64,000 bases of DNA. Origin: Diplonema papillatum. Its lineage: Eukaryota; Euglenozoa; Diplonemea; Diplonemida; Diplonemidae. The stretch is from NCBI GenBank assembly GCA_030068145.1, contig JAPJBO010000408.1, positions 124,001-188,000 on the forward strand. The letters run 5' to 3'. The notes below the pieces were generated by a model that searched no databases, was not told the DNA's origin, and worked only from the letters and a program-made list of their open reading frames with translations. This document shows positions 24,137 through 62,691 of the stretch, one piece after another (position 1 is the stretch's first letter; each line of letters starts with the position of its first letter). The translations under genes were made by a program, and so were the position numbers.

Positions 24137-27100
24137 TCAATTTGTAACTGAAGACTGCTCACGAACAAAGCGGGAGTTCATTCTCCAGAAGTTGGGTTGC
24201 CCGCAATGTGGTGCCTGTAAGCACTTGTAGTGCAGGGTTGTTTTTCAAAAAAGACAGGCGCTTCGTTTTGTTTGTGCGCGCCGGGTGATCGTTTTCCCAC
24301 TTGTGTACATTCAGGTAAGGAATTCTGATCAACCACCCAAACACGCTGCCTACGTCTTTTTAGACTGCACAATACATTGAAGGGCAACCCGCAAGATTGA
24401 TAGCACTAAAAAGGCTACGCTCAATTTTTTGATGAGAGAGTGTGTATGAATCGAACGGGTGACCGTGCATACCTTCGGCGCTGGAACTCTGTGCAAATCG
24501 GCATTGTGGTCGTGCGATACGTGGCCATGGTCGTGGTCGTGGCCATGGCCATGGTCGTGGCCATGTTCGTGGTCGTTAGCCTCCGTCCACGAATAGAACG
24601 GGTCTTCGAACTTCTCCCAGTCCTGTGTTTCCGTTCGTGAGAGGTGGCATACGTTCGCTTGCCTACTGGCTGGGAAGAAAAGTGCTCGGGCGCATTGCAA
24701 AGTACAAGAAAACTCAGCAACAGAAAAGAGAGAGAGAGAGAGACGAGTTAGTTGTCAAAGTTGGTACACGGCCGAAAAGCCGTATCTTGCCTCTGGGTAG
24801 GCGAGCGGCAGCGTCTTCTTCTGTCGCCGGGAAGATACAGAGTTGCACTTACAAGACTCAGGAATACCCGTAGACCATGAAATGAATCACAGGCTACCGG
24901 ACAACTGACTGCTTCGAGGGGATACGACACATTCCCTCTTTTCGAGGTTTCAAGCAGCGGTTTCAAGCAAGTGGCGGCCTTCTTGAGTATTTCCCACCAC
25001 GCAGGTATTCATGCAAAAATACTCGAGACTGCCTTGTGCTCATTTCGACGGGCTAGAGGGGGAGAAAGCAACACAACTACAAAGTGGGTTAAACCCAGAT
25101 TTACCTGTGGGTCGTGTGGGCAACAGCACATTTACCTCCTTTGAGATTGGAATATTGTTGCGATAGTCAGGGAGTCATCGGCATGCCGATGAGTACCACA
25201 CTTTGAGGTTTCGCACCTGGCAGTCTCCTGAAGTATTTCTTGCAGTTTACTGAGGGAATAGGAGCAAGACGCATGGCTAGATGAGATGAGCACGACCACC
25301 TCGAATCGACACCAGGAGAGTTCGGGTGGAGCTGGCTTCTACGACTAGCAATATTCCGGGAAAAGGTAGCACTAGCCCGAACCAACAGGATCAAAGACGG
25401 TCAGTCACACCTTCCCGATTATTTTTCCCGGGGAGAAAATCTTAGTTTCGTGTTCAGGCGCTACTAGCCTCTCATGTGTTTGGTGCTAGCATCAAGTCTT
25501 CTTCGGGGGGGGGGGGGGGGGGGGGATGTTAGTTTAAGGTTTAGGCAGGACACTGTCTCGCAGGGGCTTATACAATAAAACAAACCTGCGGAGGCAGGGC
25601 GAACTCTTCTTTCGTCAAGAGGCACGCGTCGAGGATGCTCTCGATCGCCGCCCGGTCCAGGAGGTACCCGATGACGACCAGCTCCTGCTGGCGGTCGCCC
25701 CACGGCTCCTGCCAGAGGTCACCCTTCCGCAGCTCCTCGTCGACGCCCGTAGGCCACTCCTCCTTCGGGCTCGCCGCCCACCACGGCTGCCCTCCGTCGA
25801 GGGTGAGCTGCTTGCCGGCCTGGCTCCAAATGCCGACTTGCGCCATCCGACTCGCAAGCCAAATGTACCCTTTCGACCGGATCACGGTCGGGAGCCCGCG
25901 GCAGTGCAGCGCCTCGTGCAGGCGCCCAGGGTGGAAGGGAACCCGCTTGCGGTAGACGAAGCTGCTGATGCCCATGTCTGGGTGTACGTGCTCCTTGTCG
26001 AGCCATTCGTCGTGCGTCTCGGCGTCGGCGAGGGAGTATCGGTCCGCGCTGATGATGAGGCCCAGGTCGATGTCGCTTTTGACCGAGTCCACGACGAGGG
26101 CCTTCGAGTTGAACTCGCGGATGAGAGAGTGCGCCCGCGCAATTTCCTCGCGGGTCATCAAGTCGGTTTTGTTGAGCACGATCACGTTCGCAAACTCCGT
26201 CTGCTCGACGAGCAGCTGAATGACCGAACGCTGGTCATCAGACGCCATCCCCGTCGACGCCAACGTGTCCGTCGCAGACGCCTTCACATCCTGCAAGAAG
26301 ATGGGCCCGTCGATAACCGTGACCATCGTATCGATACTCGCCACGTCCGCCAGGCTAGTTCCGTTCACCTCGAACGTAAACGTTTCGGCGACGTGCAACG
26401 GCTCCGAAATTCCCGACGACTCGATGACCAAGTAGTCGTACTTCCCCGAATTCGCGAGCTTCGCGACCTCCTCCAACAGGTCCTGCCGCAGCGTGCAGCA
26501 AATGCACCCGGACGATAGCTCGACCAAGTTTTCCTCCGCCCGTGTGACGGTCACGTCCGAGCGCACCAGCGCGGCGTCGATGTTGACGTCCGCCATGTCG
26601 TTGACCAGGATCGCCATCTTCAACCCAAGGTCGTGCGCCAGGATCCTCTGCAGCAGGGTCGTTTTGCCGGCGCCGAGCCAGCCGGAGATCACAGTGGTCC
26701 GCATCTTCTTCACGTCTGCCCGCCCTGGAACAGGGTCAGACGGGACGACCGCTGTTTTTTTTAGAGTTGAAGCTTGCTTGAGAACCCCAGAAACCTTGGG
26801 GCTTGGCGTGTGCAGCGCAAGCGCCAAGCCCCACGTGCGCCACGCCTTGATGCTTTAGTTTGGGAAATCGGGACCCGTGGCCCCGTAGCCCCGCAGTACC
26901 GCCGAACACGTGAAGCTTGGCTCCCGTGCAGCACGCTTTCCCCGGTACCAGTGCGCACAAACAAAAGAAAGCGCCATACCAATTTGTTGGGAGGGTTCGG
27001 CTGCCGTTGTTGTGGTTGTTGGTGTTGTTGCTGTTGTTGTTGGTGTTGTTGTTGCCGCGGAGGGTTGCCCGCCGTTAGTTCTCAAAGCCTCGAGCTCGGC

Positions 27101-29107
27101 CTCCTGCTGCTTCACCTTCTCGGCGACCCCTGCCAGCGCGTCCATCAGCTGGTCGAGCCCCTCGGCCGCGCTCGCGGGCGCCGGGGCGCGATCACTCACC
27201 GCAGCGCGGCCGCCGCCGGCCCACGCGGGCGCGCCGAAGTCGTCGCCGGCGTCGACCTCGCGCATGCCGAACACCCCGCAGCCCCATTGCTTCGCCACGA
27301 TCCCCACGTCGTGCGCCGACTTCAACCGGTGCGCGGCCTCCCACAAGACCGAGTGCCACTCGTTCATCGCGAGCCGCAGGGCCTGCTTCAGGGTGAACCA
27401 GTCGTACGTCGACGAAGTGTCCACCGGCCACTCCTCCTCGTCCCGCCGCCGGCCCCCAGGAGGAGCCCGGTTGGCAAACGCGAAATACAGGGTCAAAACG
27501 GCGCCATCCTCCGGAAACCGCGTGATGGTCCCAAGCTGGGGGGCGAGAGAATACTCATCGGGGTCGACGTCCAGGTGCTCCGCGAGGGTGCGAACGGCGG
27601 CAGACTCTGCGGTTTCCTCGTGGAGGGCCGTCGTGGTGGGGACGGCCAGCTCCCGGCGGTTCGACCCCCGCGGCTTCACGCGCACGAGCGCGCACTTGCT
27701 GCCACGGACGAGCAGGCAGCCGACCGTGTTTTTGACGGCTCCTGCCCCGAGGCCGACGCGCGTGAGCTCGGCCGCGGTCATCTCCGCCGGTTCATCGAGG
27801 ACGATGCTCATTTCGTCGTCTTTAATCGGCACCGCCGCGCGAGGCTCGTCGGCAGGCACGCTGATGTACAGGCGCCCGTCAGCGTCGGACAGCACCTTCC
27901 CCGAGATGCACACCGCTGCGTCCTTCTGGAAGGCCCGCGCGTGGGGCTTGCAGCCGGCGTCGAAGGCAACCCGAGCCGACCCGTGCGTGTCTGCCACGCG
28001 CGCCCACCTCGCCGCGGCCTTCGGCTCCGGCGTCTCGACGGACAGCACGCGGACCGGCATCCGCTCGATCGACGCCCCTGCCCGCAGCCCCCAGAGGTGC
28101 GTTTCCGCGGCGTAAAAATCGTCGCGGTCTTCGGCCCACCATTTGCACACCTCGATGCCCGCTGTCGCCCGCGCCGGCGGCGGCGGCTTTGCTGCGGCGG
28201 CGGCGGCGGCGGCGGCGGCGGGGGGGGGGTGTGCTGGTTTCGGGGGCGGCGCGGCGGTCTCGGAAGCGGGCTGCTGCCCGCTGGCCTCGGCTGGGCCGGC
28301 GTGTCCGTTGGCGGTGGCCGGCTCCTCCGTGGGGGTCTCCGTCGTGTCAGTCGGGGTGGGGAGCGCGACTGGTTTGAAGGTCTGCTCGGGCATTTTCGTG
28401 TAGGGAGAGAGCGTGAACACGATCTCACACGCCTGCAGCGTGTCGTCCCTACAGTAGCCCGGGGGGACGGCCTGCGTGTGCAGATCGTGCACCCGCTGGG
28501 CCATGCGGTCGCACATGGAGTCTAGGAGGCCGTTTTCGCCGATTTCGATGACGGAAGACGTGACTTTGCCGGCGTTCGCCTCCCGCCAACCGGCCTCGTC
28601 CGTGTCGTTGGGCTCGGTGACGAACATCAAGTGCAGCGCCACCGGCGCTTCCGGCAACGCGTCGCGGATTTGCGCGGTTTGGACTGAGTCCGGCTGGATC
28701 ATGATCCCTTCGCCCACCATCCCCGCCAGGACCTCCTGCCGCAGCAGCTTGGCCACCAGCGACGTCGCGCCGGACAGGCCGATCACGATGGCGTTCCTCG
28801 GGTTGAGTTTTTGGATGACGCGGCTCATCGGCTTCAGGACGGGGCCAGGGCCGACGGTCGCTTTTTCCTTGGGGATGTCCTTCACCAGCTTCGTGATGTC
28901 GAGAATGTACAACGCCGCGTGTGTGCCCTTTGCAAACAGCTTCCTTGCCATCGGCAGCCATCGGGACACCGGATCGCCTTTCGGCGTCGTGCGCAGGATG
29001 ATGACAGCATTCTCCGGCTGCGCCGTCTCGCTGTACGGTCCTCGGCTCACCGCGAAAAGCCGAGCATCGGCCGGGAACTCCTTCCCGTTGCGCGATGGGC
29101 GGCTCAT
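24137..29107 (-). CDS. Nudix-like / CobW (COG0523) metallochaperone GTPase fusion, four exons
   Basis: Exons are 29107-26980, 26724-25586, 24622-24473 and 24214-24137. Phases agree at each join (1, 0, 0), for about 1164 residues. Residues 1-235 are an unrecognised alpha/beta region and about 238-320 a Pro/Ala/Thr linker. About 455-600 is a Nudix-like fold whose box is degenerate (AAVRTLAEHLDVD instead of REXXEE), so hydrolase activity is doubtful. From about 717 comes a COG0523 GTPase: P-loop GWLGAGKTT (725-732), CxCC metal site (CICC, about 783-786), ESSGISEP, NKTDL, and a CobW C-domain at about 965-1085. Exon 3 supplies EDPFYSW and a tail of about 13 His in (HG/HD)n, as in zinc chaperones. 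Intron 1 holds a family C repeat. The last exon (APHCGQPNFW through SSVTN) is the least certain. The alternative is two adjacent genes. Confidence 0.85.
25060..25150 (-). repeat. family L fragment, inverted
   Basis: On the minus strand it reads AGGAGGTAAATGTGCTGTTG, CCCACACGACCCACAGGTAA and CTTTGTAGTTGTGTTG, matching 10640-10760 and 42560-42640. It lies inside intron 2 of the CobW fusion gene. Confidence 0.7.
25430..25560 (+). repeat. family F repeats, two joined copies in intron 2 of the CobW fusion gene
   Basis: AAATCTTAGTTTCGTG, CCTCTCATGTG and TGCTAGCATCAAGTCTTCTTCG are followed by a run of about 20 G, then GTTAGTTTAAGGTTTAGGCA and CACTGTCTCGCA, the start of a second copy. Confidence 0.75.
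26765..26960 (-). repeat. family C repeat inside intron 1 of the CobW fusion gene
   Basis: The segment holding AAGCATCAAGGCGTGGCGCA (read on the plus strand of the other copies) with GGGGCTTGGCGCTTGCGC and CGTGTTCGGCGGTACTGC recurs at 41385-41600 and partly at 41660-41800 and 33590-33690. It lies between donor 26979 and acceptor 26725. An apparent ATG start for CobW at 26827 falls within it, which is why I do not use that start. Confidence 0.75.
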
Positions 29108-29249
29108 CCTCCTAGCCGCGTGTGCTTTCCTCCGCCTGGCCTGGCGGGTGGGTGTTTTCTCGATTCCTTTTTCCCTTCGGTGTTTGGTTTGTGTCCAACC
29201 GCTTTTTCACGAATGGCATGCTGACATGACAAAAAGATGCTCGGAGGTG
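29108..29249. promoter_or_regulatory. 5' flank of the Nudix-CobW gene, repeated in the tandem copies
   Basis: This spacer between the start codon and the first truncated copy is nearly identical in each 421-bp repeat unit. The copies therefore carry the upstream region as well as exon 1, and any promoter or trans-splice acceptor here has been duplicated too. No specific element was identified. Confidence 0.4.
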
Positions 29250-29528
29250 TTACTGTTTGTGTTGGGCTTTTGGGACTAGGGGGTGTACTGGATTCAGCAC
29301 AGTTCCGCGGCCTGTGGTCGCCTTTTCCTTGGGGATGACCTTCACCAGCTTGACGAACAGCTTCCTGGCCATCGGCAGCCATCGGGTCATCGGATCGCCT
29401 TTCGGCGCCGCGCGCAGGATGATGACAGCATTCTCCGGCTGCGCCGTCTCGCTGTACGGTCCTCGGCTCACCGCGAAAAGCCGAGCATCGGCCGGGAACT
29501 CCTTCCCGTTGCGCGATGGGCGGCTCAT
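29250..29528 (-). CDS. truncated tandem copy 1 of Nudix-CobW exon 1, 92 codons
   Basis: The frame starts with the same MSRPSRNGKEFPADARLF as the full gene and follows it to MARKLF. It then lacks the GTHAALYILDIT stretch, resumes at KLVKVIPKEKATTGRGTVL and stops after VPKAQHKQ. It is open and intact, so a 92-residue product is possible, but it may be a simple pseudogene fragment. Confidence 0.7.
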   Translation of the reverse strand: MSRPSRNGKEFPADARLFAVSRGPYSETAQPENAVIILRAAPKGDPMTRWLPMARKLFVKLVKVIPKEKATTGRGTVLNPVHPLVPKAQHKQ

Positions 29529-29763
29529 CCTCCTTGCTCGCGTGTGCTTTCCTCCGCCTGGCCTGGCGGGTGAGTGTTTTCTCGATTCCTTTTTCCCTTC
29601 GGTGTTTGGTTTGTGTCCAACCGCTTTTTCACGAATGGCATGCTGACATGACAAAAAGATGCTCGGAGGTGTTACTGTTTGTGTTGGGCTTTTGGGACTA
29701 GGGGGTGTACTGGATTCAGCACAGTTCCGCGGCCTGTGGTCGCCTTTTCCTTGGGGATGACCT

Positions 29764-29949
29764 TCACCAGCTTGGCGAACAGTTCCTGGCCATCGGCAGC
29801 CATCGGGACATCGGATCGCCTTTCGGCGCCGCGCGCAGGATGATGACGGCATTCTCCGGCTGCGCCGTCTCGCTGTACGGTCCTCGGCTCACCGCGAAAA
29901 GCCGAGCATCGGCCGGGAACTCCTTCCCGTTGCGCAATGGGCGGCTCAT
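29764..29949 (-). pseudogene. truncated tandem copy 2 of Nudix-CobW exon 1, frameshifted
   Basis: Its start is exactly 421 bases from copy 1. The frame begins MSRPLRNGKEF and follows the parent, but one missing base after MAR changes the reading to NCSPSW and a stop. The following KLVKVIPKEK block persists out of frame. Confidence 0.8.
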
Positions 29950-30091
29950 CCTGCTTGTCGCGTGTGCTTTCCTCCGCCTGGCCTGGCGGGTGGGTGTTTT
30001 CTTGATTCCTTTTTCCCTTCGGTGTTTGGTTTGTGTCCAACCGCTTTTTCACGAATGGCATGCTGACATGACAAAAAGATGCTCGGAGGTG

Positions 30092-30370
30092 TTACTGTTT
30101 GTGTTGGGCTTTTGGGACTAGGGGGTGTACTGGATTCAGCACAGTTCCGCGGCCTGTGGTCGCCTTTTCCTTGGGGATGACCTTCACCAGCTTGGCGAAC
30201 AGATTCCTGGCCATCGGCAGCCATCGGGTCATCGGATCGCCTTTCGGCGCCGCGCGCAGGATGATGACAGCATTCTCCGGCTGCGCCGTCTCGCTGTACG
30301 GTCCTCGGCTCACCGCGAAAAGCCGAGCATCGGCCGGGAACTCCTTCCCGTTGCGCGATGGGCGGCTCAT
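30092..30370 (-). CDS. truncated tandem copy 3 of Nudix-CobW exon 1, 92 codons
   Basis: This is again 421 bases from copy 2 and encodes a 92-residue frame nearly identical to copy 1 (RNLFAKLVKV instead of RKLFVKLVKV). Beyond it, about 30548-30620 is a decayed start of a further copy (TCAGCACAGTTCCGCGGCCT). Confidence 0.7.
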   Translation of the reverse strand: MSRPSRNGKEFPADARLFAVSRGPYSETAQPENAVIILRAAPKGDPMTRWLPMARNLFAKLVKVIPKEKATTGRGTVLNPVHPLVPKAQHKQ

Positions 30371-30620
30371 CCTCCTTGTCGCGTGTGCTTTCCTCCGCCT
30401 GGCCTGGCGGGCGGGTGTTTTCTTGATTCCTTTTTCCCTTCGCGTTTCCAACCGCTTTTGACGAATGGGACGGCATGCTGACAAGACGAGTGGATCCTCG
30501 GATGTGGTACTGTTTGTGTTGAACGTTTGGATCACTGGCGCGGCTCGATAGTTTCAGCACAGTTCCGCGGCCTATGGTCGCTTTTTTCTTGAGGATGTTC
30601 TTCATCAGTTCGGTGACGGA

Positions 30621-42710: not shown

Positions 42711-43940
42711 TCGCCGGTATTTAAAAGTCTCCGGTTGACCGTAGAGGTTTGGGTAGGGAGAAGGGTTGAAAGAGGTTCACCGGTGGAACGCTCGTTTCGG
42801 GTGATGTCACTCTGTTGTGAAACCTTGTGAGGCCTCCTAACGCGTATAGGGAGTTTTAAAGTGAACCCCCGTTCCGAAAAAAGAAAACGCGCGAAATTGA
42901 ACGTTCGCTGGAAACTCGGGGGGGGGGCGTTTTGAGAGACTGTGAGAAGAGCGTCTGTGTGGTTTGGCAATTTTTCCTCAGTGTGCAAGGAGAATGGGGG
43001 GTTTTTAGTGTAAAGCTTCCGGAAAGAAGCTACGAGGACGCTCGTTTACGTGGGCTCTTGTTCGACATCAAGTGGTCCAGACGGTGGACATTTGCAGCTC
43101 CTTCGCTTTCCTCGGACAAAACCGTCGATCCGTTCGCTGTTTTGAGCTGCACGTCCAGTCCCCTTGCGTCTGCCTCCTTCGTTGCCTACTTCCCTTTTCT
43201 GATGGCGTGACGGCTTTGTCTGACGGGCTCCTGCTCGGTGGCATCGAGGACGGACGGTGAGACACTTGCAACCGGGCCTGCGCTGGCGACTGCACTACGG
43301 GGAAAAGCCTCTTCCACAGGGTCGCAAACCCGTTTGGGGGACGTCGGCATGGGTATGTTCCGTGCCACCACCATGAGCCGGTCCATCCCCTCTTGATAGA
43401 CCGTGATAGACTGCGGCAGGCACTTCGATGCAGTTTCAAGAGATAGGGACGGACCGGCTCACACGGTCCCCAACACAGGGCGCGTTGTCGTAGATTCAAC
43501 TGGCACACACACAGGCAGCCGAAGGTTTCCTGCGTACACGTGAGCAATAGTGTCCAAGTTGTCCGTGTTGCATCGAGCTCAACAGACATGGACATAACTC
43601 GAATTAAATCCCAGCCCACAATTGTACTATGAAGGCTTTGGATCGGCGGTGGTTCCCTCGTCGCAAGCTTGAATCGTTTACAACACAATCCCCCTGGCAC
43701 AGGTTTTCGGCGCCTGCTCCTGGGTACAGGGGCGAAAGACCCATCAAACCTGGTTCGCTCCGAAGTTTCCCTCAGGATAGCTAGAACCAAAACAGGAGTT
43801 CCGCCAGGTAAAGCGAATGATTGGAGGCATTGGGGAAATCGTTTCCTCAACCTATTCTCAAATTTTGAATGGGCGTGAGCCGGGTTACTTCATTGAGCCC
43901 TGACGTAGAATCCTGGTTCTGAGTGGGTCACCTCTGGTAA
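42711..43940. other. intergenic region, no recognised gene
   Basis: A minus-strand frame of 260 codons at 43068-43850 is open but Arg/Ser-rich and without any domain. It contains the family E repeat (about 43390-43465), so I treat it as chance. Confidence 0.35.
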
Positions 43941-44225
43941 GCAGGACTGGCGAAGCGGGATGAACCGAGAGCTGACTTAAGGTGTCCGAGTGATCGCTCA
44001 TCAGATCCCACAAAGGGTGTCGGTTCATCTTGACAGCAGGACTGGCGACGCGGGATGAACCGAGAGCTGACTTAAGGTGTCCGAGTGATCGCTCATCAGA
44101 TCCCACAAAGGGTGTCGGTTCATCTTGACAGCAGGACTGGCGACGCGGGATGAACCGAGAGCTGACTTAAGGTGTCCGAGTGATCGCTCATCAGATCCCA
44201 CAAAGGGTGTCGGTTCATCTTACGG
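43941..44225 (+). repeat. three 95-bp tandem repeats
   Basis: Units begin at 43941, 44036 and 44131 (GCAGGACTGGCGACGCGGGA ... GGGTGTCGGTTCATCTTGAC) and are nearly identical. Confidence 0.95.
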
Positions 44226-54226: not shown

Positions 54227-54964
54227 TTACGAAGAGTGGTACGTCGCCGCAGGGTGGGGCACTTCTGAGGCCTTCCTCCAGTAGAAGTCCATCCAGTTGT
54301 GTGCCTCATAGATCGTCTCCTCGACACTGGTGTTCTGGATGTTCTCCGCTCGCAGGTTCTGGAAGTGGAACACTCTGTTGTCAGTCGTGTACACATCGAT
54401 TCTCTTCGGCGTCGTGTTCGGAATGTGCAAACTGGCAATCAACTTGTACGGAGCAGACTCCTTCAAGCTCAGCTTCTTGTCTTTGTTTCCATCAGCGAAG
54501 TGAACGCCACAGCTGGTGATTGCCAGTTTGCCAAGGTGCTGGTGGGCCTTGCCGTCGACATACATACATTGGTACACCTCGATCACAGTCTCGTACTTGT
54601 GAAGCTCTGGGAAGCATTGCATGAACCACTTCTGTTCAGCTTCACTCGCCTTCTTGTGGAACCTGTCTGTCATCGAGTGCTGCGTGTGGGACAGTGTGGC
54701 TGCTGCTTTCGCCCCTGCCAGGTGAGCCGCGCTCCTTGCCTTGTCCATCATTCCCTTCTTGTGTTCTTTGTTCTCGAGGTGCGCTGCCTGCGCGTATTCG
54801 ACGCGTTGCTGTGCTTTCGTCTCCTCGTGGTGTTGTTCCACCTTGCGCTGTTCTTCCGGCGTTGCTTTGTTCACAACTTGTGTAGGCATCGGCGCGCCAC
54901 CAGTGTACTTTGCAGGCCCGCACGTCGTGGGCTGGAAAGCAACGGTCTCAGACGTGGTCGGCAT
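54227..54964 (-). CDS. GRAM-domain protein, array copy 1
   Basis: The 245-residue intron-free protein has a Glu/His/Gln-rich amphipathic N-terminus (about 1-110, with AAHLAGAKAAATLSHTQH). A GRAM domain follows at about 112-225 (YQCMYVDGKAHQHLGKLAIT, GVHFADG, YKLIASLHIP, RIDVYTTDNRVFHFQNL). GRAM domains are PH-like membrane- or lipid-associated modules; plant GEM-like proteins have a similar layout. The exact role is unknown. All six copies encode the same protein. This is the last (3'-most) copy; its 3' flank back to about 53955 still matches the array unit. Upstream of the ATG the sequence reads ACCCTACTAACC in every copy. Confidence 0.88.
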   Translation of the reverse strand: MPTTSETVAFQPTTCGPAKYTGGAPMPTQVVNKATPEEQRKVEQHHEETKAQQRVEYAQAAHLENKEHKKGMMDKARSAAHLAGAKAAATLSHTQHSMTDRFHKKASEAEQKWFMQCFPELHKYETVIEVYQCMYVDGKAHQHLGKLAITSCGVHFADGNKDKKLSLKESAPYKLIASLHIPNTTPKRIDVYTTDNRVFHFQNLRAENIQNTSVEETIYEAHNWMDFYWRKASEVPHPAATYHSS

Positions 54965-55712
54965 GGTTAGTAGGGTCTTGTGTGAAGTTGTGTAAGCTGA
55001 AGCGTGTTGACTGTTTCATTTGAGGCACGATTACGTACGACAGATTTCCTTTATTTGCAGTGCATGCCCCCGGGACCAGTACCCACAGGATAGAGATACG
55101 GTATCGGAGGCTAATTATCTTCCGCAGCAACTATAGACCATGCTTGGCGCCCCCCGAAGTTTTCAGTGCGTCTTTGCGTTCTTCTGCCGAGAACGCGCCA
55201 CTCTATGTCAGGGCTGCCACGTTTGCGGCCTTCTTCTAATCTCCTCCTGCTTAAGGTAGCCCAATGCCTCGTCTTCTAATTAAAGACGCGCGTGAATGGA
55301 CCGATGAGATTCCTTCTGTCCCTACCTAGCTTTTTCGAACTCCAGTGAAACAACCAAGAGGCTACGGGTTCTCTCTCTCTGTGTTTCTCCGTTGCTGACG
55401 GACTTGCTTCGTGTTTCAACAAACATAAAACTTGCTTCTGCGAAATATGGCGCGCAAACACGAATGAAAGTGAAAGGCTTTTTATCACACTGAGGATAGT
55501 TGGTGTGGCTTTGACGCGACTAACCAGACTAACCAGCAGTTGTCAAGAGAGAGGTAGCAAACAGGTGAGAAATGCACGGGTGGGAATGGGTCACGTCGGG
55601 CCGAGTTCAAGCAGAATGTTGCCAATCTACCCAGCCTGACGCGGGGGGAGGTTAGAGAAAGAATTGCTAATTGGCAAACTGCTGGTCATGGGAACAGTAG
55701 TAGTCGGACAGC

Positions 55713-56450
55713 TTACGAAGAGTGGTACGTCGCCGCAGGGTGGGGCACTTCGGAGGCCTTCCTCCAGTAGAAGTCCATCCAGTTGTGTGCCTCGTAGATC
55801 GTCTCCTCGACACTGGTGTTCTGGATGTTCTCCGCTCGCAGGTTCTGGAAGTGGAACACTCTGTTGTCAGTCGTGTACACATCGATTCTCTTCGGCGTCG
55901 TGTTCGGAATGTGCAAACTGGCAATCAACTTGTACGGAGCAGACTCCTTCAAGCTCAGCTTCTTGTCTTTGTTTCCATCAGCGAAGTGAACGCCACAGCT
56001 GGTGATTGCCAGTTTGCCAAGGTGCTGGTGGGCCTTGCCGTCGACATACATACATTGGTACACCTCGATCACAGTCTCGTACTTGTGAAGCTCTGGGAAG
56101 CATTGCATGAACCACTTCTGTTCAGCTTCACTCGCCTTCTTGTGGAACCTGTCTGTCATCGAGTGCTGCGTGTGGGACAGTGTGGCTGCTGCTTTCGCCC
56201 CTGCCAGGTGAGCCGCGCTCCTTGCCTTGTCCATCATTCCCTTCTTGTGTTCTTTGTTCTCGAGGTGCGCTGCCTGCGCGTATTCGACGCGTTGCTGTGC
56301 TTTCGTCTCCTCGTGGTGTTGTTCCACCTTGCGTTGTTCTTCCGGCGTTGCTTTGTTCACAACTTGTGTAGGCATCGGCGCGCCACCAGTGTACTTTGCA
56401 GGCCCGCACGTCGTGGGCTGGAAAGCAACGGTCTCAGACGTGGTCGGCAT
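55713..56450 (-). CDS. GRAM-domain protein, array copy 2
   Basis: The product is identical to copy 1. Differences are synonymous, for example CAACGC against CAGCGC in the EEQRKVE region. The frame runs open upstream of the ATG to 56603, but the shared Met at 56450 is the start in the other copies. The spacer to copy 1 is 748 bases and to copy 3 is 835 bases. Both belong to the longer spacer class, containing CAGATTTCCTTTATTTGCAG and GCTTAAGGTAGCC. Confidence 0.88.
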   Translation of the reverse strand: MPTTSETVAFQPTTCGPAKYTGGAPMPTQVVNKATPEEQRKVEQHHEETKAQQRVEYAQAAHLENKEHKKGMMDKARSAAHLAGAKAAATLSHTQHSMTDRFHKKASEAEQKWFMQCFPELHKYETVIEVYQCMYVDGKAHQHLGKLAITSCGVHFADGNKDKKLSLKESAPYKLIASLHIPNTTPKRIDVYTTDNRVFHFQNLRAENIQNTSVEETIYEAHNWMDFYWRKASEVPHPAATYHSS

Positions 56451-57285
56451 GGTTAGTAGGGTCTTGTGAAGTTGTGTAGGCTGAAGCGTGTTGGCTGTTT
56501 CATTTGAGGCACGTTTACGACAGATTTCCTTTATTTGCAGTGCCTGCCCCGGGACCCACAGGATAGAGATATAGTATCGGAGGCTAGCTTTCTTCCGCAG
56601 CAACTATAGACCATGCTTGGCGCCCCCCGAAGTTTTCCGTGCCTTTGCGTTCTTCTGCCGAAAACGCGCCACTCTGTGTCAGGGCTGCCACGTTTGCGGC
56701 CACCTTCTAATCTCCTCCTGCTTAAGGTAGCCAAATGCCTCGTCTTCTAATTAAAGACGCGCATGAATGGACCGATGAGATTCCTTCTGTCCCTACGTAC
56801 TATCTGGCGAAAGAAAATTCTGCACTATTCTTGCGGTATCGGCCGAGTCGCCATATTCTACGGTCAGTCCTTGCACCATTCTCACCGCCTGTGCACTAGT
56901 GTGTCAGTTCCCCGTAGCTTTTTCAAACTCCAGTGAAACAACCAAGAGGCTACGGGTTCTCTCTGTGTTTCTCCGTTGCTGACGGACTTGCTTCGTGTTT
57001 CAACAAACATAAAACTTGCTTCTGCGAAATATGGCGCGCAAACACGAATGAAAGCGAATGGCTTTTTTATCACACTGAGGATAGTTGGTGTGGCTTTGAC
57101 GCGACTAACCAGACTAACCAGCAACTGTCAAGAGAGAGGTAGCAAACAGGTGAGAAATGCACGGGTGGCACGTCGGGCCGAGTTCAAGCAGAATGCTGTC
57201 TACCCAGCCTGACGCGGGGGGAGGTTAGAGAAAGGGTTACTAATTAGCGAGTTATGGTTCATGGGAACAGCAGTAGACTGTCAGC

Positions 57286-58023
57286 CTACGATGAGTGGTA
57301 AGTCGCCGCAGGGTGGGGCACTTCGGAGGCCTTCCTCCAGTAGAAGTCCATCCAGTTGTGTGCCTCATAGATCGTCTCCTCGACACTGGTGTTCTGGATG
57401 TTCTCCGCTCGCAGGTTCTGGAAGTGGAACACTCTGTTGTCAGTCGTGTACACATCGATTCTCTTCGGCGTCGTGTTCGGAATGTGCAAACTGGCAATCA
57501 ACTTGTACGGAGCAGACTCCTTCAAGCTCAGCTTCTTGTCTTTGTTTCCATCAGCGAAGTGAACGCCACAGCTGGTGATTGCCAGTTTGCCAAGGTGCTG
57601 GTGGGCCTTGCCGTCGACATACATACATTGGTACACCTCGATCACAGTCTCGTACTTGTGAAGCTCTGGGAAGCATTGCATGAACCACTTCTGTTCAGCT
57701 TCACTCGCCTTCTTGTGGAACCTGTCTGTCATCGAGTGCTGTGTGTGGGACAGTGTGGCTGCTGCTTTCGCCCCTGCCAGGTGAGCCGCGCTCCTTGCCT
57801 TGTCCATCATTCCCTTCTTGTGTTCTTTGTTCTCGAGGTGCGCTGCCTGCGCGTATTCGACGCGTTGCTGTGCTTTCGTCTCCTCGTGGTGTTGTTCCAC
57901 CTTGCGCTGTTCTTCCGGCGTTGCTTTGTTCACAACTTGTGTAGGCATCGGCGCGCCACCAGTGTACTTTGCAGGCCCGCACGTCGTGGGCTGGAAAGCA
58001 ACGGTCTCAGACGTGGTCGGCAT
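57286..58023 (-). CDS. GRAM-domain protein, array copy 3
   Basis: The protein is identical to the others, with a few synonymous differences (for example CACACAGCACTC against CACGCAGCACTC). From its 5' side onward the spacers switch to a second class (CAGGTCAGGGCCCCTCAGAA, GAATACTATGTCGGAGGCTA), so copy 3 sits at the junction of two sub-arrays. Confidence 0.88.
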   Translation of the reverse strand: MPTTSETVAFQPTTCGPAKYTGGAPMPTQVVNKATPEEQRKVEQHHEETKAQQRVEYAQAAHLENKEHKKGMMDKARSAAHLAGAKAAATLSHTQHSMTDRFHKKASEAEQKWFMQCFPELHKYETVIEVYQCMYVDGKAHQHLGKLAITSCGVHFADGNKDKKLSLKESAPYKLIASLHIPNTTPKRIDVYTTDNRVFHFQNLRAENIQNTSVEETIYEAHNWMDFYWRKASEVPHPAATYHSS

Positions 58024-58727
58024 GGTTAGTAGGGTCTTGTGTGAAGTTGTGTAAGCTGAAGCGTGTTGACTGTTTCGTGTTGAGGCACGATTACGTATGA
58101 CAGGTCAGGGCCCCTCAGAAAACATGAATACTATGTCGGAGGCTAGCTAAGTTCGGTAGCAACAACCATGCTTGGCCCGACTTTGCGCTGTTCTGCCGAA
58201 ATGCGCCACTCTGTACTAGGCATGCGGCTTTTTTAGCTAGTTCTGCAATAATAATATGTTATGCGGTATCGGCCAAGTTGCGCATTTTTTCTACGGTCAC
58301 TTCTTAAGACCCCTTAGGACAAGTCTCACCGTCCGTGCAGAGTGAAAGTCGAAGAAGTTGTCGGCTCTGCTTGTAGCTTCCTGAGCGTCCGCAGGTTCTC
58401 GCTGCGTGTCTCCGTTGCTGACGGATTTGTTTCGTGTTTCTGCAACCATAAAATTTGCGTCGGCGAAATACGGCGCCCAAACGCGAAAGGAAATGAAAGC
58501 CTTTTCTGTCAAGCTGAGGATAGCTAGTGTGGCTTTGACGCGACTAACCAGCAACTGTCAAGAGAGAGGTAGCAAACAGGTGAGAAATGCACGGGTGGGA
58601 ATGGGTCACGTCGGGCCGAGTTCAAGCAGAATGTTGCCAATCTACCCAGCCTGACGCGGGGGGAGGTTAGAGAAAGAATTGCTAATTGGCAAACTGCTGG
58701 TCATGGGAACAGTAGTAGTCGGACAGC

Positions 58728-59465
58728 TTACGAAGAGTGGTACGTCGCCGCAGGGTGGGGCACTTCGGAGGCCTTCCTCCAGTAGAAGTCCATCCAGTTG
58801 TGTGCCTCGTAGATCGTCTCCTCGACACTGGTGTTCTGGATGTTCTCCGCTCGCAGGTTCTGGAAGTGGAACACTCTGTTGTCAGTCGTGTACACATCGA
58901 TTCTCTTCGGCGTCGTGTTCGGAATGTGCAAACTGGCAATCAACTTGTACGGAGCAGACTCCTTCAAGCTCAGCTTCTTGTCTTTGTTTCCATCAGCGAA
59001 GTGAACGCCACAGCTGGTGATTGCCAGTTTGCCAAGGTGCTGGTGGGCCTTGCCGTCGACATACATACATTGGTACACCTCGATCACAGTCTCGTACTTG
59101 TGAAGCTCTGGGAAGCATTGCATGAACCACTTCTGTTCAGCTTCACTCGCCTTCTTGTGGAACCTGTCTGTCATCGAGTGCTGCGTGTGGGACAGTGTGG
59201 CTGCTGCTTTCGCCCCTGCCAGGTGAGCCGCGCTCCTTGCCTTGTCCATCATTCCCTTCTTGTGTTCTTTGTTCTCGAGGTGCGCTGCCTGCGCGTATTC
59301 GACGCGTTGCTGTGCTTTCGTCTCCTCGTGGTGTTGTTCCACCTTGCGCTGTTCTTCCGGCGTTGCTTTGTTCACAACTTGTGTAGGCATCGGCGCGCCA
59401 CCAGTGTACTTTGCAGGCCCGCACGTCGTGGGCTGGAAAGCAACGGTCTCAGACGTGGTCGGCAT
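58728..59465 (-). CDS. GRAM-domain protein, array copy 4
   Basis: The protein is identical to the others. Start-to-start spacing to copy 3 is 1442 bases, the standard unit of this half of the array. The spacer on its 5' side (59466-60511) is 1046 bases instead of 704 because of the inserted family A element. Confidence 0.88.
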   Translation of the reverse strand: MPTTSETVAFQPTTCGPAKYTGGAPMPTQVVNKATPEEQRKVEQHHEETKAQQRVEYAQAAHLENKEHKKGMMDKARSAAHLAGAKAAATLSHTQHSMTDRFHKKASEAEQKWFMQCFPELHKYETVIEVYQCMYVDGKAHQHLGKLAITSCGVHFADGNKDKKLSLKESAPYKLIASLHIPNTTPKRIDVYTTDNRVFHFQNLRAENIQNTSVEETIYEAHNWMDFYWRKASEVPHPAATYHSS

Positions 59466-59698
59466 GGTTAGTAGGGTCTTGTGTGAAGTTGTGTAAGCTG
59501 AAGCGTGTTGACTGTTTCGTGTTGAGGCACGATTACGTATGACAGGTCAGGGCCCCTCAGAAAACATGAATACTATGTCGGAGGCTAGCTAAGTTCGGTA
59601 GCAACAACCATGCTTGGCCCGACTTTGCGCTGTTCTGCCGAAATGCGCCACTCTGTACCAGGCATGCGGCTTTTTTAGCTACTTCTGCAATAATAATA

Positions 59699-60032
59699 GA
59701 GAGAGAGAGAGAGACGAGTTAGAGTGCAGGGACCATCTCTCCGAGGAGTACCCGGTCGCCCCACTACTATCCCGTACTACTACGGCGGGCGCAAGTCGTT
59801 GCGCCGTGGGCGCGGAGCGAGCCGTGGCCCTGTCAAAGATGATTGTTGCACCGATGGTGGCGCAGCCGGGGGCGTTCTGACTGGCGGACGAGACCGCCTG
59901 GCAGGCGTGTGTTGACACGTTGTTTCGCGGGCTCTCCTCCTTTTGGCAATAGCCCGCCCTATGGCGGCGGCTAGCATCTTGACAGAGAATCTCAACTCCC
60001 ACTGAACATAGGGTACGTCGTAGGGTACATCG
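59699..60032 (+). mobile_element. complete family A retroposon-like element, 334 bp, with 8-bp target-site duplication
   Basis: The other spacers of the array give the empty site (CTGCAATAATAATATGTTATG). Here the element lies between two copies of TAATAATA (59691-59698 and 60033-60040). It starts with (GA)n ACGAGTTAGAGTGCAGGGAC and ends with two short units, GGGTACGTCGTA and GGGTACATCG. Size, lack of a gene, simple-sequence ends and the duplication fit a SINE-like element, though I see no clear pol III A/B boxes. The unit length confirms it: 1784 minus 1442 equals 342, which is 334 plus 8. Confidence 0.93.
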
Positions 60033-60511
60033 TAATAATATGTTATGCGGTATCGGCCAAGTTGCGCATTTTTTCTACGGTCACTTCTTAAGACCCCTTA
60101 GGACAAGTCTCACCGTCCCTGCAGAGTGAAAGTCGAAGAAGTTGTCGGCTCTGCTTGTAGCTTCCTGAGCGTCCGCAGGTTCTCGCTGCGTTTCTCCGTT
60201 GCTGACGGATTTGTTTCGTGTTTCTGCAACCATAAAATTTGAGTCGGCGAAATACGGCGCCCAAACGCGAAAGGAAATGAAAGCCTTTTCTGTCAAGCTG
60301 AGGATAGCTAGTGTGGCTTTGACGCGACTAACCAGCAACTGTCAAGAGAGAGGTAGCAAACAGGTGAGAAATGCACGGGTGGGAATGGGTCACGTCGGGC
60401 CGAGTTCAAGCAGAATGTTGCCAATCTACCCAGCCTGACGCGGGGGGAGGTTAGAGAAAGAATTGCTAATTGGCAAACTGCTGGTCATGGGAACAGTAGT
60501 AGTCGGACAGC

Positions 60512-61249
60512 TTACGAAGAGTGGTACGTCGCCGCAGGGTGGGGCACTTCGGAGGCCTTCCTCCAGTAGAAGTCCATCCAGTTGTGTGCCTCGTAGATCG
60601 TCTCCTCGACACTGGTGTTCTGGATGTTCTCCGCTCGCAGGTTCTGGAAGTGGAACACTCTGTTGTCAGTCGTGTACACATCGATTCTCTTCGGCGTCGT
60701 GTTCGGAATGTGCAAACTGGCAATCAACTTGTACGGAGCAGACTCCTTCAAGCTCAGCTTCTTGTCTTTGTTTCCATCAGCGAAGTGAACACCGCAGCTG
60801 GTGATTGCCAGTTTGCCAAGGTGCTGGTGGGCCTTGCCGTCGACATACATACATTGGTACACCTCGATCACAGTCTCGTACTTGTGAAGCTCTGGGAAGC
60901 ATTGCATGAACCACTTCTGTTCAGCTTCACTCGCCTTCTTGTGGAACCTGTCTGTCATCGAGTGCTGCGTGTGGGACAGTGTGGCTGCTGCTTTCGCCCC
61001 TGCCAGGTGAGCCGCGCTCCTTGCCTTGTCCATCATTCCCTTCTTGTGTTCTTTGTTCTCGAGGTGCGCTGCCTGCGCGTATTCGACGCGTTGCTGTGCT
61101 TTCGTCTCCTCGTGGTGTTGTTCCACCTTGCGTTGTTCTTCCGGCGTTGCTTTGTTCACAACTTGTGTAGGCATCGGCGCGCCACCAGTGTACTTTGCAG
61201 GCCCGCACGTCGTGGGCTGGAAAGCAACGGTCTCAGACGTGGTCGGCAT
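60512..61249 (-). CDS. GRAM-domain protein, array copy 5
   Basis: The protein is identical to the others; a silent change (AACACCGCAG against AACGCCACAG) marks this copy. Its 3' spacer holds the family A element. Confidence 0.88.
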   Translation of the reverse strand: MPTTSETVAFQPTTCGPAKYTGGAPMPTQVVNKATPEEQRKVEQHHEETKAQQRVEYAQAAHLENKEHKKGMMDKARSAAHLAGAKAAATLSHTQHSMTDRFHKKASEAEQKWFMQCFPELHKYETVIEVYQCMYVDGKAHQHLGKLAITSCGVHFADGNKDKKLSLKESAPYKLIASLHIPNTTPKRIDVYTTDNRVFHFQNLRAENIQNTSVEETIYEAHNWMDFYWRKASEVPHPAATYHSS

Positions 61250-61953
61250 GGTTAGTAGGGTCTTGTGTGAAGTTGTGTAAGCTGAAGCGTGTTGACTGTT
61301 TCGTGTTGAGGCACGATTACGTATGACAGGTCAGGGCCCCTCAGAAAACATGAATACTATGTCGGAGGCTAGCTAAGTTCGGTAGCAACAACCATGCTTG
61401 GCCCGACTTTGCGCTGTTCTGCCGAAATGCGCCACTCTGTACTAGGCATGCGGCTTTTTTAGCTAGTTCTGCAATAATAATATGTTATGCGGTATCGGCC
61501 AAGTTGCGCATTTTTTCTACGGTCACTTCTTAAGACCCCTTAGGACAAGTCTCACCGTCCGTGCAGAGTGAAAGTCGAAGAAGTTGTCGGCTCTGCTTGT
61601 AGCTTCCTGAGCGTCCGCAGGTTCTCGCTGCGTGTCTCCGTTGCTGACGGATTTGTTTCGTGTTTCTGCAACCATAAAATTTGCGTCGGCGAAATACGGC
61701 GCCCAAACGCGAAAGGAAATGAAAGCCTTTTCTGTCAAGCTGAGGATAGCTAGTGTGGCTTTGACGCGACTAACCAGCAACTGTCAAGAGAGAGGTAGCA
61801 AACAGGTGAGAAATGCACGGGTGGGAATGGGTCACGTCGGGCCGAGTTCAAGCAGAATGTTGCCAATCTACCCAGCCTGACGCGGGGGGAGGTTAGAGAA
61901 AGAATTGCTAATTGGCAAACTGCTGGTCATGGGAACAGTAGTAGTCGGACAGC

Positions 61954-62691
61954 TTACGAAGAGTGGTACGTCGCCGCAGGGTGGGGCACTTCGGAGGCCT
62001 TCCTCCAGTAGAAGTCCATCCAGTTGTGTGCCTCGTAGATCGTCTCCTCGACACTGGTGTTCTGGATGTTCTCCGCTCGCAGGTTCTGGAAGTGGAACAC
62101 TCTGTTGTCAGTCGTGTACACATCGATTCTCTTCGGCGTCGTGTTCGGAATGTGCAAACTGGCAATCAACTTGTACGGAGCAGACTCCTTCAAGCTCAGC
62201 TTCTTGTCTTTGTTTCCATCAGCGAAGTGAACGCCACAGCTGGTGATTGCCAGTTTGCCAAGGTGCTGGTGGGCCTTGCCGTCGACATACATACATTGGT
62301 ACACCTCGATCACAGTCTCGTACTTGTGAAGCTCTGGGAAGCATTGCATGAACCACTTCTGTTCAGCTTCACTCGCCTTCTTGTGGAACCTGTCTGTCAT
62401 CGAGTGCTGCGTGTGGGACAGTGTGGCTGCTGCTTTCGCCCCTGCCAGGTGAGCCGCGCTCCTTGCCTTGTCCATCATTCCCTTCTTGTGTTCTTTGTTC
62501 TCGAGGTGCGCTGCCTGCGCGTATTCGACGCGTTGCTGTGCTTTCGTCTCCTCGTGGTGTTGTTCCACCTTGCGTTGTTCTTCCGGCGTTGCTTTGTTCA
62601 CAACTTGTGTAGGCATCGGCGCGCCACCAGTGTACTTTGCAGGCCCGCACGTCGTGGGCTGGAAAGCAACGGTCTCAGACGTGGTCGGCAT
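61954..62691 (-). CDS. GRAM-domain protein, array copy 6
   Basis: This is the first copy in transcription order, with an identical protein. The frame is open upstream to 62778, but the shared Met at 62691 is used. Homology to the other spacers ends about 40 bases upstream of the ATG (near 62735), so the sequence beyond is the unique 5' border of the array. Confidence 0.88.
   Translation of the reverse strand: MPTTSETVAFQPTTCGPAKYTGGAPMPTQVVNKATPEEQRKVEQHHEETKAQQRVEYAQAAHLENKEHKKGMMDKARSAAHLAGAKAAATLSHTQHSMTDRFHKKASEAEQKWFMQCFPELHKYETVIEVYQCMYVDGKAHQHLGKLAITSCGVHFADGNKDKKLSLKESAPYKLIASLHIPNTTPKRIDVYTTDNRVFHFQNLRAENIQNTSVEETIYEAHNWMDFYWRKASEVPHPAATYHSS

Follow-up and report, generated by a model that had tools for sequence, protein, structure and literature searches.

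Results

Organization of the locus

The 64,000-nucleotide stretch of Diplonema papillatum DNA analyzed here (positions 124,001 to 188,000 of contig JAPJBO010000408.1; hereafter the window) carries on its minus strand a 750-codon open reading frame (ORF) with a degenerate Nudix-like domain and, close behind it, an exon encoding a GTPase of the CobW/COG0523 family. An earlier note, made from the sequence letters, had read the two as a single gene of four exons in which a pseudo-Nudix protein is fused to a CobW metallochaperone. The features of the locus, numbered from the first letter of the window, are:

28928..30442, no strand given: 421-bp unit in 3.6 tandem copies, taking in the 5′ end of the Nudix-like gene
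26855..29107, minus: upstream ORF, 750 codons, as read from the ORF itself
26980..29107, minus: exon 1 of the fusion model, that is, the upstream ORF as far as the proposed donor; 709 codons plus one base
27350..27727, minus: Nudix domain, residues 461–586 (Pfam PF00293)
26808..26985, minus: composite dispersed repeat, recognized by its copies in the same genome
26725..26979, minus: disputed stretch, either a cis-intron or a gene end plus spacer with pyrimidine tract and AG (26726–26725)
25586..26724, minus: CobW/COG0523 exon (exon 2), with P-loop GWLGAGKT, GCICC, NKTD, and CobW_C; ATG at 26704
24623..25585, minus: intron 2, a cis-intron of 963 bp in phase 0, across which the ZigA profile match runs on
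24473..24622, minus: exon 3, DWEKFEDPFYSW followed by a His-rich tail, by homology
24137..24214, minus: exon 4 as first proposed, unsupported by its codon score

The four proposed exons (29107–26980, 26724–25586, 24622–24473, and 24214–24137, minus strand) are separated by GT-AG introns of phases 1, 0, and 0, and no internal stop appears on translation. The upstream ORF and the CobW ORF share one frame; between them lie a single TAA (26857–26855) and 50 open codons leading to the ATG at 26704, a TAA-to-ATG distance of 150 bp. This ATG is the sole in-frame ATG of CobW back to the TAA, and it lies outside both the dispersed repeat and the proposed first intron, contrary to the earlier note, which had placed the CobW start codon inside the repeat. 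The upstream ORF lacks any stop codon other than the one in the repeat.

A predicted ZigA-like GTPase with a histidine-rich tail

The CobW part matched the Pfam families cobW (157.6 bits) and CobW_C (80.3 bits) and has the composition expected of a CobW GTPase, with a nucleotide-binding domain containing P-loop and NKxD motifs in addition to CobW_C. The CXCC metal-binding motif is present as GCICC and is invariant in a six-sequence alignment. Among NCBIfam families, ZigA (NF038288) was the best match by far, scoring 434.1 bits when exon 2 was read to its own stop. Addition of exons 3 and 4 raised the score to 446.2 bits and moved the end of the match from position 378 to position 389 (positions 3–389 of 390), which supports intron 2 and exon 3. 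The score does not reach the NF038288 equivalog cut-off of 600 bits, and the protein, judged by sequence, appears to be ZigA-like and not ZigA proper. Four bacterial proteins, annotated as ZigA or as GTP-binding protein, are 45 to 47% identical to it, and one archaeal protein is 38% identical. The protein may well bind and deliver zinc.

Exon 3 contributes DWEKFEDPFYSW, which corresponds to the DPF..W motif at the C terminus of the bacterial proteins; of the 69 prokaryotic relatives read (80 were fetched), 57 have a C-terminal motif resembling DPF..W. An HxHxHxH-type pattern was seen in none of these 69, which suggests that the His-rich tail has been added. Coding signal was detected throughout the CobW exon, and codon usage scored +8.4 bits over the 50 codons of exon 3. 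Exon 4 scored −13.7 bits over 25 codons, a noncoding-like value that leaves it without support. Two further phase-0 introns had been proposed downstream of exon 2, along with the His-rich tail; the tail is confirmed and lies in exon 3, and the intron leading to that exon is retained, but exon 4 is not. In another CobW gene of this genome (L002:1120–2733), the exon also contains a long open stretch on the N-terminal side, and the CobW_C match falls in the next ORF.

A degenerate Nudix domain in the upstream ORF

Residues 1–245 of the upstream ORF have no assigned domain; a linker rich in Pro, Ala, and Thr extends to about residue 320, and the Nudix domain occupies residues 461–586. C-terminal to this domain, a likely coiled coil was recognized by eye, followed by a Thr-rich tail that contains a tandem repeat of 3 bases. 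The Nudix superfamily profile (PF00293) matched at 21.6 bits in the whole ORF and 24.8 bits in the excised piece, marginally above the cut-off of 21.1. An alignment to MutT, which is itself not significant (E = 1), was judged against the Nudix box motif: the Glu eight residues ahead of the Arg is kept, as is the Arg itself, and of the three REXXEE glutamates one remains; the two others and both glycines are gone, leaving the box incomplete. The loss of the REXXEE glutamates described in the earlier note thus holds for two of the three. On this sequence, the Nudix-like part is very likely not active as a hydrolase.

AlphaFold models built from single sequences, with no relatives in the input, gave a mean predicted local distance difference test score of 35.6 for residues 1–245 and 33.2 for residues 318–650; the latter model, which covers the region (residues 320–600) whose structure had been singled out as a check, speaks neither for nor against a Nudix fold. 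For residues 1–245, Pfam returned only a subthreshold DNA_Packaging match (E = 0.16, 12.2 bits, cut-off 25), and PHROGs and the PDB returned no match; the whole upstream ORF had no match in NCBIfam. When residues 1–640 were searched against the D. papillatum genome, the best 60 of 7,043 candidates contained no match apart from the ORF's own locus and three partial copies lying immediately upstream of it, and three queries against viral contigs found no relatives. The 421-bp unit that covers the 5′ end of the gene shows the same tandem-duplication habit as is described for D. papillatum (PMC10161547).

A dispersed repeat between the two frames

The repeat at 26985–26808 spans the first 172 bases of the proposed first intron together with a few bases ahead of it, and is a composite in which 29 bases from the start of a short interspersed element are followed by the body of a second element. 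It supplies both the proposed donor GT (26979–26978) and the TAA that ends the upstream ORF. The donor GT forms the first two bases of the 29-mer, and the preceding AAATTG resembles the A-rich stretch found ahead of most copies. In the 271 Mb of genome searched, the 29-mer at the donor has 1,087 copies with three or fewer mismatches, as compared to none for a reversed-pattern control. With the whole stretch as query, at least 39 other places align up to query position 188–193, at least eight starting in the first 30 query bases, and there is one further short match (best 40 of 970). The remainder of the disputed stretch, 26807–26725, was in none of the repeat matches listed. Its codon usage is noncoding-like: of 1000 coding windows, 99.9% score higher, as do 73% of 2000 open noncoding ones; since the Thr-rich linker of the upstream ORF scores equally badly, this measure cannot tell linker from spacer.

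The short interspersed element starts as (A-rich)TTAGTATGGCGC (26951–26979; loci L048–L077), and many of the fetched copies continue with GGTAAGT, AATTTTTAG, and AACAATGCATTGTTAACAC motifs that call to mind a small nuclear RNA or a leader RNA; an Rfam search with one copy of the short repeat yielded nothing up to E = 1. Membership of intron 1 in a family of transposable introns was considered and is not supported: among 39 other distinct repeat-start copies in the fetched loci, a strong same-strand coding run reaches the repeat in one (L058), as it does in the window copy, and in none of the other 38.

A spliced leader and one-way gene arrays

The 3′ part of a spliced leader, the 20-base ACAGTTTCTGTACTWTATTG, has 661 matches in the genome at one mismatch or fewer, as compared to none for the control, and a longer form, CCAACGATTTAAAAGCT-ACAGTTTCTGTACTTTATTG, which we take to be the diplonemid leader, was present in all three loci fetched. 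The dinoflagellate spliced leader, also tried, has no match at two or fewer mismatches. All 16 coding segments of the window are on one strand, six of them being copies of one gene, and the same holds in three further stretches (6/6 in L084, 1/1 in L085, and 2/2 in L086; 9/9 in total). Neighboring pairs at other loci of this genome are on the same strand in 10 cases, some of them surely exons, and on opposite strands in one. Consistent with these observations, D. papillatum is described as having a genome of ∼280 Mb with one-way gene clusters and an average of 1.6 introns per gene (PMC10161547). The median 3′- and 5′-untranslated regions (UTRs) published for this species are ∼800 and ∼70 bp (PMC10161547). 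Given one-way arrays and trans-splicing, a separate CobW gene may receive its leader at the AG of 26725; in such a genome, two genes can look like two exons.

A close pair of unlike genes occurs elsewhere in this genome (L001 and L084:5230–7723), where a PPR gene is followed on the same strand by a second CobW gene with 124 bp from stop to ATG. The PPR codon signal persists to the stop, its last 30 codons scoring +10.1 bits.

One gene or two

Judging from DNA alone, we give a single gene that fuses the Nudix-like ORF to CobW about an even chance and regard it as slightly likelier than two genes. With the CobW start lying outside the repeat, the reason offered for fusion in the earlier note falls, and better arguments come from relatives. 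Among 86 prokaryotic loci compared at the N terminus, 75 had readable ORFs and 11 did not; 70 had an upstream Met, and 71 offered the full context. Seven residues separate ATG 26704 from the P-loop glycine, and in none of the 70 relatives with an upstream Met does it lie nearer than 10. The position of Met 26704 is occupied by Leu in 67 of 71 relatives, by Ile in three, and by Val in one. Immediately before this ATG stands a Lys codon, at a position that is K or R in 56 of 71 relatives (the share of K/R triplets in repeat-flank loci of this genome is 0.146), which suggests that translation begins earlier than ATG 26704; no alternative ATG was found in the leader stretch read or in the CobW frame back to the TAA. 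In further agreement with fusion, the single TAA in the shared frame falls inside the repeat, and the 150-bp distance from TAA to ATG is small as compared to the 704 to 1046 bp, taken from positions, that separate the five neighboring pairs of tandem gene copies at 54 to 63 kb and to the published median 3′-UTR (PMC10161547). The fused gene first proposed thus survives, and from these data we infer the join of exon 1 to exon 2.

Several observations weigh against this conclusion. An intron with donor 26979 and acceptor 26725 in phase 1 does give an open join, as had been claimed, but the frame stays open in 72 of the 229 GT-AG pairs tested in the disputed stretch, so that such a join is cheap and means little. 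The codon signal of the upstream ORF weakens at 27089, ahead of the donor. When GTG and TTG are counted as well, 44 of 73 relatives have such a codon seven or fewer residues from the P-loop glycine; we read them as normal codons for Val and Leu residues of the strand, and the N-terminal argument is accordingly one about ATG. Twenty nucleotides upstream of ATG 26704 is an AG preceded by 75% pyrimidines, the highest value among the AGs of the preceding 150 nt. None of 69 prokaryotic relatives has an open stretch of more than 117 residues ahead of the P-loop, and the PPR–CobW precedent shows that different genes can stand this close together here. Essentially all D. papillatum mRNAs are reported to carry the leader (PMC10161547), and a 2026 paper reports that, because of trans-splicing arrays, RNA-informed gene predictions often join separate coding regions of this species into one (PMC12817076).

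The main alternative is two genes in one polycistronic array, whose chances we put a little short of even. The Nudix-like gene would end in the repeat at 26855, CobW would receive its leader at AG 26725 and start at ATG 26704, and the fused model would be a merge artefact. The abundance of the leader, the one-strand arrangement of coding segments, and the PPR–CobW pair are all as expected under such a model. It would, however, leave the upstream gene a 3′-UTR of at most ∼130 nt, against the published median of ∼800 (PMC10161547), and CobW an N terminus that is shorter than that of all 70 relatives and excludes the conserved K/R position. A single repeat-linked deletion could have shortened the spacing and trimmed both gene ends, which would explain at once why the two ORFs lie so close, why the stop comes from the repeat, and why the CobW N terminus is short, and two genes therefore stay under consideration. 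In sum, the N-terminal evidence and the spacing favor one gene, whereas the genome's mode of working and the precedent pair favor two. Far less probable is a separate CobW gene with a short, unrecognized first coding exon, for example from ATG 26977 in the repeat, spliced to 26724. In that frame, acceptor 26725 can be joined from donors at 26958, 26934, 26907, and 26874, and such an exon would give CobW additional residues ahead of ATG 26704, like those of its relatives, but it would have to be repeat-born, and 26980–26858 has a codon score of −10.0 bits. We consider it slightly less probable still that a once-continuous fused ORF was broken by insertion of the repeat, with one half or both now remnants. 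The frame is the same on either side of the repeat and the 27 codons between the repeat and 26725 are open, but such openness has a chance of 0.68 in shuffled sequence; 26806–26726 scores below 99.9% of 1000 coding windows (the linker of the upstream ORF being equally bad), and the CobW exon retains its coding signal from end to end.

Proposed architecture and mechanism

Under the fused model, a single mRNA would start upstream of ATG 29107. The protein that it encodes would pass from an N-terminal region with no assigned domain and the degraded Nudix domain, through a linker that is likely coiled coil and Thr-rich, to the ZigA-type COG0523 GTPase and finally to the His-rich tail. The first cis-intron (26979–26725) would begin at the edge of the inserted repeat, so that the donor would have come with the insertion. 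The GTPase would hold zinc through GCICC when loaded with GTP and give it up to its client upon GTP hydrolysis, and the His tail would gather zinc. The Nudix-like part would most likely bind a nucleotide-like ligand or a partner, with no hydrolysis, and might in this way couple zinc delivery to that signal or client. COG0523 proteins have been linked to zinc homeostasis across all kingdoms (PMC2770081), and their tight metal binding is thought to require Mg and GTP (PMC9010474). The complete proposal, in which a ZigA-like chaperone sits behind a pseudo-Nudix sensor, a repeat created the donor at the domain boundary, and a dead Nudix domain reading a nucleotide-like signal gates zinc delivery, is offered tentatively and is, taken as a whole, rather doubtful. 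A Nudix gene beside bacterial zigA was looked for as a hint of a functional link, but the strict full Nudix-box pattern was found in 0 of 69 loci, and its control also gave 0.

Relation to known families

The recognized parts all belong to known families, and the fusion, if real, would be a new arrangement of known parts and not a new kind of system. With ZigA (NF038288), the Diplonema protein has in common the P-loop, GCICC, NKTD, CobW_C, and C-terminal DPF..W; it differs in falling below the 600-bit cut-off, in being eukaryotic and intron-split, and in its His-rich tail and possible N-terminal fusion. With Nudix hydrolases (PF00293; MutT), it shares the profile match at residues 461–586, the Glu, the Arg, and one REXXEE glutamate, but has lost the two other glutamates and both box glycines. 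A nuclear CobW/WW-domain factor of Chlamydomonas (PMC12891040) is likewise a eukaryotic CobW protein named for an extra domain, although that domain is WW and not Nudix, and the organism is another. ZNG3 (PMC13368412) and the diatom ZCRP-A (PMC9010474) are also eukaryotic CobW proteins of other organisms. Two of these three proteins are tied to zinc (PMC12891040, PMC13368412, PMC9010474). No Nudix–CobW fusion turned up in the titles and abstract openings of the open literature searched, and diplonemids and CobW together returned only a Chromista review, by title.

A true fusion would physically tie a nucleotide-type recognition fold to a zinc-inserting GTPase and would provide a testable handle on when and where the chaperone delivers its metal, in a GTPase family for which few clients or triggers have been identified. 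Two genes, on the other hand, would serve as a warning that the one-way arrays of euglenozoans make neighboring genes mimic exons, a trans-splice acceptor being indistinguishable by eye from a cis-acceptor.

Other features of the window

The tandem array at 54227–62691 on the minus strand consists of six copies of a 245-codon gene whose product starts MPTTS; the one copy tested had no match in Pfam or NCBIfam. On the plus strand, 43766–43967 is a fragment of eukaryotic large-subunit ribosomal RNA, matched at 153.6 bits.

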